From Xanthobacteraceae bacterium (GTDB taxonomy: Bacteria > Pseudomonadota > Alphaproteobacteria > Rhizobiales > Xanthobacteraceae), in assembly GCA_024508855.1 (NCBI GenBank), contig JANINJ010000107.1, positions 186,001 through 250,000 on the forward strand: a stretch of DNA of 64,000 nucleotides, given 5' to 3'. This document shows, one piece after another, positions 59,938-62,942 of this stretch. Under the pieces are notes generated by a model. It was not told the origin of the DNA, made no database searches, and saw only the letters and a program-made list of their open reading frames with translations. The stretch's first letter is position 1; every line of letters starts with the position of its first letter. The position numbers were made by a program, and so were the translations under genes.

Positions 59938-60042
59938 TCGTCACGTCATATTATCGCGCTACGGTGTGCATGCGGCCGCGCTTGCACGTCGGAAAATCCG
60001 GCCGCGCCATGAAACGCGGTTGACAACGATGGCCCTTCGCTG

Positions 60043-60063
60043 CGATGTTATATTATAACATCG
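60043..60063. promoter_or_regulatory. Zur-like palindrome upstream of the DUF2946/TonB receptor genes
   Basis: The 21-base element has 10-bp perfect arms, CGATGTTATA and TATAACATCG, around a central T. The core ATGTTATANTATAACAT equals the central part of the gammaproteobacterial Zur consensus. A TTGACA hexamer (60020-60025) lies 17 bases before it, so the palindrome would cover the -10 region of a promoter for the downstream genes. Zinc-dependent repression is inferred. Confidence 0.6.
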
Positions 60064-60109
60064 GACAGCAGGGGACGATTTGCCGCTCCGATGTGGGGTG
60101 CATGTCGCA

Positions 60110-60520
60110 ATGAAGTGGTTCCGATCGAGGGCAAAGCACGGAGCGAGGCTGGCGCTGTTCGCGCTCGCCGTGCAGTTCGTGCTGTCGTTCGGACATTTTC
60201 ATTGGGACGCGGCGGAAGCCGCACCGGCGATCGCACCGATTGCCGGGCAGTCCACCGCCGTCCACCCTTCGGACGGCCCCGCGACTGTCCCGACGGTGCG
60301 CACCGATCCGGCGTCGCATCAGAAACCGGACCGGCATCCAGCCGACACCTGCGCGATCTGCGTGGCGATGGCGATGGCCGGGTCGGCGATGTTCGCCGAA
60401 CCGCCGCTGCTGATGCTGCCGCAGGCGTATCATTTTCTCTATCTGACGACCGACGCGGAATTCTCCCACCTCGGCAACGAGCGCGTCGTCTTCCAGCCAC
60501 GCGCCCCTCCCGCTTCCTGA
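60110..60520 (+). CDS. DUF2946 family small exported protein
   Basis: This 136-residue protein has an N-terminal signal-like segment (KHGARLALFALAVQFVLSFGHFHWDAAEA) with a His pair (GHFHWD). A central Cys pair is in HPADTCAICVAMAMAGSAM, and a hydrophobic stretch (MAMAGSAMFAEPPLLMLPQAY) could anchor it in the membrane. DUF2946 members commonly sit next to TonB receptors and metal genes. The start is the ATG at 60110; a TTG at 60080 is possible. The TonB receptor gene follows after 157 bases. Confidence 0.75.
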   Translation: MKWFRSRAKHGARLALFALAVQFVLSFGHFHWDAAEAAPAIAPIAGQSTAVHPSDGPATVPTVRTDPASHQKPDRHPADTCAICVAMAMAGSAMFAEPPLLMLPQAYHFLYLTTDAEFSHLGNERVVFQPRAPPAS

Positions 60521-60677
60521 CATCGACCATTTGATGGTCCCGCCGCTCGCCGCGCCGTTCGCGCACGAAGTCGCGGGATGACTTCGCAATCAATCCGTCG
60601 ACTTCACGCGGTCTACGCAATCTCATCGCCGATTCCGTTCGTTGAGATGCCCGGCCGTATCAGGAATCAGAACAACA

Positions 60678-62942
60678 ATGTCACCTCTGGCTAAACGTGC
60701 GCCTTTCATGTCCGGCGCCGCCACGCTGCTGCTGTCGGGCCTCGGCAGCATCGCAATCCCTCATCATGCGGCCGCGCAGACGGCGGCCGCAGGTACCACG
60801 ACCTTGCCCGAGATCGTGGTGCGGGCACCACGCGCACCTCATGGCTCCAGGCGGCCCAGGACACGGGTCGTGACCGAGAATCGCCGGCAGGAGCCGAACG
60901 TTCCCCAACCCACTGCAGCCGAAGCACTCGCGGGTAAGACCGAAGCGCTCGATCAGGCGCGACAGAACATCGTCGCACCGCTCGGCACGATCCCCTACCA
61001 ACTGAGCCATCAGGCGATCCAGTCGCTGCCGCAGGGGACCGATGCGTCGCTCGACAAGGTTCTGCTGCAGGCGCCGGGAGTGACCCAGGATTCCGCGGCG
61101 AGCGGCGATCTCCATGTGCGCAACGAGCACGCGAACCTGCAATATCGTATCAACGGAATCATGATGCCGGACGGCGTCGGCGGCTTCGGCCAGATTTTCG
61201 ATACCGCGCTGGTCGGAAACATGTCGCTGATCACCGGCGCGTTGCCGGCGCAGTATGGTCTGCGCACCGCCGGCGTGATCGATATCCAGACCCGGACCGA
61301 TGCCTTCAACAACAGCGGCAGCGTCAGCGTCTATGGCGGCAGCAACGGAACGATCACGCCCAGTTTCAACTATGGCGGCACGATCGGGCAGACCCAGTAT
61401 TTCGTCAGCGGGCGCTATTTCGGCAGCGATCTCGGCCTCGAGAACCCGACTCCGTCACGCAACGCCATTCACGACCGGACGCAGCAGGACAAGGGCTTCG
61501 TCTATCTGTCGACGCTGGTCGACGAGAATACCCGCCTGTCCTTCATCGGCGGCACGTCGACCAGCCGCTACCAGATTCCGAACAATCCCGGCCAGACGCC
61601 GGCCTTCACCGCCTTCGGCGTCTCGGATTTCAATTCGGCGCTGCTGAATGAAAACCAGGTCGAGCAGAATCATTTCGGCGTTCTTGCCCTGCAAAAGTCG
61701 ATCAATGGATTCGATCTGCAGCTTTCCGCGTTCACTCGCTACAGCAGCGTCCACTTCATGCCGGACACGATCGGCGATCTGGTGTTCAACGGGGTGGCTT
61801 CGGATGTCTATCGGCGCAGCGTTGCGCAGGGAATCCAGGCCGACGGGTCTTATAAGCTGAACGATGCGCACACGTTGCGCGCTGGTTTCTCGGTCACCGG
61901 CGAACAGGCCTATGTCAACAATTCCTCGATCGTTCTGCCGATCGATAGCAACGGCGATCCCTACGATGCGCCGTTCGGCATCACCGATACGAGCTCGAAA
62001 CTGGGATGGCTGTTCAGCACCTACATTCAGGACGAATGGAAGATCACCAACCAGTTGACGCTGAATACGGGCCTGCGTTTCGATCAGATGGATCAATATG
62101 TCAGCGCCAACCAGCTCAGCCCGCGCGTCAGCCTGACCTACAAGCCGTTCGAGAACACCACTTTCCACGCCGGCTATGCGCGAAACTTCACGCCGCCGTC
62201 ACTGGTGCTCGCCGCCCCCACCAATCTGGCGCTGGTACAGGGCACCACGCAGCAACCTGCCGTCAACACCAACAGCCCGGTATTGCCGGAGCGATCCAAC
62301 GTGTTCGATGTCGGCGTCGAACAGAAGGTCTTTCCCGGCTTCACGGTCGGCATCGACGCCTACTACAAGACCGCGCGCGACCTGCTCGATGACGGACAAT
62401 TCGGCGCTGCCTATGTGCTGACGGCGTTCAACTACGACAAGGGCGAAAATGTCGGCGTCGAGCTGAAGTCGTCCTACACCAACGGAAACTTCCGCGCCTA
62501 CGGCAACATCGCCTGGGGGCACCAGATCGGGACCAACATCGTATCGAACCAGTATCTGTTCGATCCCGATGAACTGGCCTACATCGCCAACCATTACATC
62601 TACACCGATCACAGCCAGTTCTGGACCGCGTCGGCCGGCGCTTCCTATCGCTGGCGCGACACGACGTTCACCGGGTCGATGATCTATGGCAGCGGGTTGC
62701 GCGCGGACGGAGTCGATGGCGTTCCGAACGGCGGCCATGTTCCGGCCTACACGCAGTTCAACGTCGGCATCGCCCACGATTTCTACATCGTCGATGCAAA
62801 GCGCCCGACCACCCTGCGGTTCGACGTCGTCAACCTGTTCGACTCGGTCTATCAGATCCGGGACGGCTCAGGCATCGGCGTGTTCGCGCCGCAGTACGGG
62901 CAACGCCGCGGCTTCTATGTCGGGCTTTCGCAGAAGCTGTAG
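60678..62942 (+). CDS. TonB-dependent outer membrane receptor
   Basis: This 754-residue protein has a signal peptide (MSPLAKRAPFMSGAATLLLS, cleavage probably after HHAAAQ). A plug domain follows (SLDKVLLQAPGVTQDSAASGDLHVRNEHANLQYRINGIMMPDGV, about 120-165), and then the 22-strand barrel (TGALPAQYGLRTAGVIDIQTR onward). It ends ...RRGFYVGLSQKL, with a non-aromatic last residue. The substrate is not readable from motifs. The Zur-like palindrome and DUF2946 neighbour suggest zinc (or another metal or metallophore). I used the ATG at 60678; an ATG at 60642 adds twelve residues. Confidence 0.9.
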   Translation: MSPLAKRAPFMSGAATLLLSGLGSIAIPHHAAAQTAAAGTTTLPEIVVRAPRAPHGSRRPRTRVVTENRRQEPNVPQPTAAEALAGKTEALDQARQNIVAPLGTIPYQLSHQAIQSLPQGTDASLDKVLLQAPGVTQDSAASGDLHVRNEHANLQYRINGIMMPDGVGGFGQIFDTALVGNMSLITGALPAQYGLRTAGVIDIQTRTDAFNNSGSVSVYGGSNGTITPSFNYGGTIGQTQYFVSGRYFGSDLGLENPTPSRNAIHDRTQQDKGFVYLSTLVDENTRLSFIGGTSTSRYQIPNNPGQTPAFTAFGVSDFNSALLNENQVEQNHFGVLALQKSINGFDLQLSAFTRYSSVHFMPDTIGDLVFNGVASDVYRRSVAQGIQADGSYKLNDAHTLRAGFSVTGEQAYVNNSSIVLPIDSNGDPYDAPFGITDTSSKLGWLFSTYIQDEWKITNQLTLNTGLRFDQMDQYVSANQLSPRVSLTYKPFENTTFHAGYARNFTPPSLVLAAPTNLALVQGTTQQPAVNTNSPVLPERSNVFDVGVEQKVFPGFTVGIDAYYKTARDLLDDGQFGAAYVLTAFNYDKGENVGVELKSSYTNGNFRAYGNIAWGHQIGTNIVSNQYLFDPDELAYIANHYIYTDHSQFWTASAGASYRWRDTTFTGSMIYGSGLRADGVDGVPNGGHVPAYTQFNVGIAHDFYIVDAKRPTTLRFDVVNLFDSVYQIRDGSGIGVFAPQYGQRRGFYVGLSQKL

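Follow-up and report, generated by a model that had tools for sequence, protein, structure and literature searches.

What does a DUF2946 open reading frame (ORF) do between a Zur-like operator and the gene for a TonB-dependent receptor? This arrangement occurs in a 64,000-nucleotide stretch of DNA from a Xanthobacteraceae bacterium (assembly GCA_024508855.1, contig JANINJ010000107.1, positions 186,001 to 250,000; hereafter the window), where a first-pass annotation had proposed a zinc-starvation uptake unit with the DUF2946 protein as an accessory metal handler. The comparisons presented here point to a different role for the small ORF. We consider it likely that the locus is an outer-membrane uptake operon for a metal, most likely zinc, that is held by two locks: a predicted Zur operator over the promoter and, behind it, an upstream ORF (uORF) of the CruR type, whose translation may decide whether transcription reaches the receptor gene.

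The palindrome is as the annotation had described it, perfect over 21 bases and with a TTGACA hexamer 17 bases upstream (coordinates are collected in Table 1). Within the 64-kb window no second place matches its 17-base core (60045-60061) at three or fewer mismatches, and 100 shuffles gave no such place. A search of the whole genome (5.16 Mb) found a single exact copy of the core and seven places at three or fewer mismatches, of which two overlap. The start of the DUF2946 ORF follows after 46 intervening bases. A leader scan with the sigma-70 consensus found no full promoter at the window locus. Among the 117 box-bearing loci of the family survey described below, 97 have an exact TTGACA that begins 23-26 nucleotides (nt) 5' of the TGTTAT within the box, so that the operator sits at the expected -10 element and transcription start, as a repressor site would.

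The proteobacterial Zur motif has been given as GTTA-N5-TAAC (PMC4176598) and the rhizobial one as a 7-1-7 palindrome (PMC7029138); the window palindrome matches both. The genome has the exact GTTA-N5-TAAC motif at five distinct places (six by count, one place being an overlapping pair), of which two are on C74 and C88; gene context was read for the other three. The GTTAT-N3-ATAAC form is present at three of the five places: the window locus, a ZigA-type gene and the head of a znuCBA-type operon. The scan for the palindrome at zinc genes of the same genome found it ahead of both. The gene behind the second box scores 617 bits with the NCBIfam ZigA family (cut-off 600), and the third box heads an operon of a small His-rich ORF, an ABC ATPase, an ABC-3 permease and ZnuA. 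The small His-rich ORF, which separates the box from the znuC-like gene (L094:4339-4602, minus strand, on C75), contains a hydrophobic stretch and gave no Pfam match. The genome encodes a Zur-like gene, on C18, as judged by family and structure matches: it is one of three Fur-family genes, its best NCBIfam match is Zur (123.7 bits, under that family's cut-off of 167), and its nearest solved structures are 7dh7, a Fur-family regulator, and 4mtd, a Zur protein.

The site is also kept within the genus. In all eight genomes the site, the DUF2946 ORF and a receptor gene stand in the same order, which agrees with what the annotation had expected of orthologous upstream regions, and all eight ORFs end in RAPPAS and carry CAIC 46 residues before RAPP. 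The receptor in this slot is of one type, here called ZnuD-type, in seven of the eight (76-100% to two same-genus references); the exception is the window's own genome. For the G001 receptor, the only one compared with the PDB, the best match was ZnuD (4rdr, E 4e-40), and its best NCBIfam family was likewise ZnuD, under the cut-off. Taken with the motif at znuCBA, these congeners bear on a second reading of the palindrome, in which other Fur-family proteins, Irr or Fur, bind it and the operon serves iron. Two further Fur-family genes are indeed present, one of them Irr, and iron regulation is frequent among TonB receptors. We weighed iron control of the operon and regard it as very improbable, since the motif is common to the znuCBA operon and the ZigA-type gene of the same genome and heads ZnuD-type receptors in the congeners. 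We consider it very probable that the palindrome is a site for Zur.

The gene behind the window ORF matches TonB-dependent receptors, as had been proposed. Its identification as ZnuD was considered and rejected, as no ZnuD appeared among its NCBIfam or PDB matches; by sequence it belongs to another TonB receptor family. Relatives at 63-72% include two with the box (L040 and L043) and one that lies behind a ZnuD-type gene (L039). Among nine more distant relatives (45-49%; L044-L052), seven have a site of three or fewer mismatches shortly 5', some of them weak, against a background for three-mismatch sites of 0.048 per 600 nt. Given the sites ahead of these seven, the window receptor family probably serves zinc or a zinc complex too, a predicted substrate. 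The Zur interpretation of the annotation was thus upheld by the motif at znuCBA and the ZigA-type gene, by the Zur-like gene and by the eight congeners, and it failed to extend to some relatives of the receptor, L039, L041 and L042 being without the box.

Zur control of TonB receptors has a described parallel in Caulobacter crescentus, where znuK, znuL and znuM are Zur-repressed receptor genes with a very similar operator (in znuK, GATGTTATATCATAACAAT), but no arrest-peptide uORF is described between operator and receptor in that account (PMC4176598). The same account reports two DUF2946 genes with lower expression in a zur mutant, one of which is the first gene of an operon for zinc efflux that Zur is said to activate.

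What sets the window locus apart is its first ORF. The annotation had taken DUF2946 proteins to be without assigned function, a view that is out of date, since CruR (bp2923) of Bordetella pertussis, a DUF2946 gene standing first in a copper-regulated receptor operon, is described as a regulatory uORF (PMC9426467). According to that report, CruR is proposed to stall its own ribosome; its CXXC is required for the copper response and its RAPP for expression, the two lying about 45 residues apart, and with copper present transcription is ended by Rho before it reaches the next gene, which lies 162 nt away. Both RAPP and RGPP are reported to support arrest of the ribosome in a number of settings (PMC12992588). 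The DUF2946 assignment of the window ORF held, with a marginal pass of the Pfam cut-off (25.7 against 23.7 bits). Like CruR it stands first, has a CXXC and, at a similar distance of 46 residues, a RAPP near its C-terminus (RAPPAS-stop), has a C-over-G region, and is followed by a long gap (157 nt, against 162 nt in Bordetella) and by a TonB receptor gene (PMC9426467). Around the end of the window ORF, three windows of 78 nt show C exceeding G by 0.23; the means for box-bearing family loci are 0.17-0.21. No intrinsic terminator was found in the 157-nt leader. Folding of the leader RNA is mildly stronger than that of shuffles (z -1.94; 5 of 200 equal or better), a result that we did not use as evidence. 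The two systems differ in that the window promoter carries a Zur operator, that an HxH (His-X-His) motif takes the place of an extra Cys, and that RAPP lies two residues before the end and not three; moreover, CruR has a reported copper response (PMC9426467), whereas the likeness of the window ORF to it is one of sequence. By these hallmarks the window ORF seems to be a CruR-type uORF, and ribosome arrest and Rho action would follow by analogy.

A second relative, CutF of Rhodobacter capsulatus, is likewise described as an exported peptide of the DUF2946 family through which a metal controls the next gene in cis, but there copper raises translation of a copper oxidase by way of a stem-loop, and the peptide has a CXXXC and a proline-rich end (PMC9973294). 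Copper sensing, its authors argue, does not extend to every relative; for members that carry His motifs alone they name nickel and cobalt (PMC9973294). The genome of the window carries a second DUF2946 ORF (L015 / L096, on C74), of the Cys type (CLIC, RGPP), which precedes the gene for another TonB receptor; no Zur box was found at it, and it is likely a copper-type paralogue.

The pairing of box and uORF recurs across the window's family. A profile (A1) built from DUF2946 proteins of the HxH type was searched in 291 family genomes and matched in 170. We read 131 loci, the best-scoring matches among those listed (30, a further 100, and G007 of the genus; one place each in G191, G145 and G166, and everything after G101, were left out), and since they come from the top of the list the sample leans toward the query. 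The box score of a locus is that of its best-matching site in the roughly 600 nt that lie 300-900 nt upstream of the stop codon; 29 ordinary DUF2946 loci and 20 further ones served as 49 controls. The best site had no mismatch in 35 family loci, one in 61, two in 15, three in six and at least four in 14. A box with two or fewer mismatches was therefore present in 111/131 family loci and 0/49 controls. At three or fewer the figures are 117/131 and 6/49, as scoring the best of about 600 nt lets three-mismatch sites arise by chance; L218, one of the six family sites of this kind, is probably such a match. The DNA 3' of the ORF at all 160 loci held four sites of two or fewer mismatches per 388,015 bases. 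Behind the 117 box-bearing uORFs the next receptor is ZnuD-type in 95, window-type in 20 and unclassified in two, and behind the 14 boxless ones the next gene is window-type in 12, ZnuD-type in one and ExbB-like, by eye, in one. Among the 29 first controls, 25 next receptors were nearest another reference receptor (six of them above 45%) and four were unclassified; a ZnuD- or window-type receptor was not found behind any. In a FastTree tree of 160 DUF2946 proteins these 29 fall on one side of a branch (SH-like 96), with six changes of box label; the alignment has few columns, the HxH columns were kept and long branches meet, and we take this tree as a hint only.

The same loci speak to how the peptide acts. 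R[AG]PP stands exactly two residues before the stop in 131/131 (the pattern searched was R.[PA]P), and CXXC is separated from RxPP by 46 residues in 127 loci and 47 in four, whereas the distance from HxH to CXXC ranges from 10 to 65. A fixed end and spacing beside a variable distance upstream fit an arrest peptide. They are hard to reconcile with the protein being an exported zinc-binding accessory of the uptake system that acts in trans, as is the report that the Bordetella relative cannot be replaced in trans (PMC9426467). Such a protein would account for the signal-like N-terminus, for the His and Cys residues and for selection on the protein (median dN/dS 0.32 over 28 genus pairs), and still we think it improbable. 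The His pair (GHFH) and the CAIC, on which the annotation had based its accessory metal handler, are present, but the CruR hallmarks make a cis-acting regulator the better reading.

If the ORF is a CruR-type regulator, which metal would it sense? HxH lies within the 95 residues before CXXC in 130/131 family rows and in 2/29 controls, where it is elsewhere in the protein; the 95 residues counted can extend 5' of the start codon. When the 29 controls were aligned with the 129 GHxH rows, a set picked by a pattern that itself contains HxH, the controls had a Cys between the two His positions in 76%, a Cys in an IC[HS] motif in 97% and a Cys directly after CXXC in 76%. None of these three is in the consensus of the GHxH rows, and some further Cys occurs in 36% of the GHxH rows with a box. 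Before CXXC, box-bearing GHxH rows average 0.43 Cys and 5.33 His, against 2.38 and 2.69 in the controls. Zn(II) is commonly bound by a CXXC together with an HxH, and for Cu(I) ligand sets rich in Cys are suitable. The gain of HxH and loss of the extra Cys thus favour zinc, and suggest that the Zur-linked ORFs are a Cys2His2, zinc-sensing variant; the metal site of the peptide seems to have changed from a copper to a zinc type. On this evidence we lean, by a little, towards zinc as the metal sensed.

The same two locks could also be combined with a uORF that still senses copper. This would make an AND gate, in which expression of the operon requires low levels of zinc as well as copper, and would bar copper or copper-loaded ligands from a zinc receptor. 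The only CXXC-RAPP member of tested metal specificity is indeed copper-specific: the Bordetella CXXC served copper, zinc had little effect, and replacing another, semiconserved Cys in CruR was harmless (PMC9426467). Since that CXXC responds to copper without the extra Cys, and since CXXC and spacing are unaltered in the family ORFs, the window CXXC could do so too. This tells against zinc sensing. In turn, the copper-type Cys are gone from the consensus and HxH gained alongside Zur boxes and ZnuD-type receptors, and 0/29 of the first controls have a ZnuD- or window-type receptor behind them. We therefore hold copper sensing to be a serious but rather unlikely alternative to zinc.

HxH uORFs are not confined to this family. 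In a second alphaproteobacterial family (f6) an HxH DUF2946 protein was matched in 78/96 genomes, and in the 30 loci read, those nearest to the query, HxH, CXXC and R[AG]PP were present in 30/30 with 45-47 residues between the latter two. A box of two or fewer mismatches was found at 0/30 of these loci. The next gene encodes a window-type receptor in 17 (39-47%), a ZnuD-type receptor in seven (36-39%), a porin-like protein in three, an RND outer-membrane component in two and another product in one. Since HxH uORFs here precede zinc uptake genes without a box, the link between HxH uORFs and such genes is independent of the Zur box. One HxH ORF of f6 (L262:1501-1920, minus strand) reaches only 12.1 bits with Pfam DUF2946, under the cut-off of 23.7; as f6 ORFs can score this low, Pfam surveys may miss HxH ORFs. 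Porin-like proteins encoded next after HxH DUF2946 ORFs (L294:2382-3815, plus strand; L296:673-2193, minus strand) gave no Pfam or NCBIfam match, and at L294 a ZnuA-like gene follows. In a class-wide search an HxH profile (A2) matched in 16/387 genomes, two of them of the window's family. An ORF was found at 14/15 A2 loci outside the family, with HxH near the signal end, by eye, in only three (L227, L228 and L231). At L227 and L228, in further families, the HxH uORF is accompanied by a porin-like and a ZnuA-like protein, and L227 has a one-mismatch site.

Several of the observations count against a two-lock, zinc-directed operon. Genome-wide, GTTA-N5-TAAC occurs six times and a reversed control pattern 44 times; with the control commoner than the motif, the Zur argument rests on the location of sites and not on their number. 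Two relatives of the window receptor, L041 and L042, have neither a box nor a ZnuD-type gene upstream. In f6, HxH uORFs also head RND efflux operons, one of whose two pumps is of the CusA/CzcA type, with zinc or copper as its possible substrate. The AlphaFold2 model of the uORF, with a hydrophobic N-terminal helix, is too poor to reveal a metal site (mean pLDDT 65, pTM 0.26). Finally, 14/131 family loci lack the box, six of them without explanation (L146, L187, L201, L205, L210 and L214). Five boxless loci (L186, L188, L194, L195 and L199) come immediately after a ZnuD-type receptor gene (70.8-72.4%) as second units of a tandem; the exact motif was found just 5' of the first unit in four of the five genomes (G145, G152, G166 and G180) and not in G186. 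L172 follows a ZigA-type gene (69%), and L192 has a degenerate box. At L208, where the box was lost or never present, a ZigA-like fragment is found upstream of the DUF2946 ORF. L187 and L205 have in common another upstream palindrome, by eye about TGCGACAC-N-GCGTCGCA, and at L201 an HxH DUF2946 ORF precedes, by eye, an ExbB-like gene and no receptor.

Table 1. Elements of the predicted two-lock operon in the window (window coordinates)
Feature	Position	Strand	Basis or remark
Likely -35 element TTGACA	60020..60025	+	Exact hexamer, ends 17 bases 5' of the palindrome
Zur operator, predicted	60043..60063	.	Perfect 21-base palindrome CGATGTTATATTATAACATCG
CruR-type upstream ORF (DUF2946), 136 residues, proposed arrest peptide	60110..60520	+	Pfam DUF2946 and CruR hallmarks
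GHFH codons (H-x-H motif)	60191..60202	+	H-x-H 5' of CXXC in 130/131 family loci
CAIC codons, proposed metal-sensing CXXC	60350..60361	+	
C-over-G stretch, possible Rho loading region	60436..60565	+	At ORF end
RAPP codons, proposed arrest motif	60500..60511	+	Two residues before stop
Leader gap, 157 nt, upstream ORF to receptor	60521..60677	+	
TonB-dependent receptor, not ZnuD by sequence	60678..62942	+	E 6e-31; start ATG 60678 by eye, stop 62940-62942

Taken together, the comparisons give good support to the two-lock layout, with the arrest step carried over from CruR. In the first lock, zinc-loaded Zur would bind the palindrome over the promoter and block initiation. Once the operon is transcribed, the first ORF would be translated as a CruR-type peptide, the second lock. 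In the absence of metal the ribosome would stall at RAPP and keep Rho off the C-rich leader, allowing transcription to reach the receptor gene. Metal bound to the CXXC of the nascent chain, perhaps together with HxH, would release the stall, and transcription would end 5' of the receptor gene. More broadly, we see about an even chance that the HxH branch of DUF2946 consists of zinc-sensing arrest peptides related to CruR, with a Cys2His2-like site on the nascent chain, which give receptors for zinc a further, translation-coupled zinc lock, behind Zur here and unaccompanied by a Zur box in another lineage.

In most accounts, Zur controls zinc uptake by acting on transcription initiation. Here a predicted Zur operator and a CruR-type uORF are paired before outer-membrane receptors across a large family, together with a consistent change in the likely ligands. 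We found no published report that joins Zur with a uORF of this type, in a search that left most subscription papers and bioRxiv preprints outside. The authors of the CruR study point out that neither zinc nor copper has a known riboswitch (PMC9426467). Were zinc the metal sensed, the peptide would act as a zinc switch after initiation, and the branch would represent a natural change of metal specificity within one family of arrest peptides; were it copper, one receptor would be gated by two metals. These results also suggest that many "DUF2946 proteins" are cis-acting regulators rather than metal handlers.

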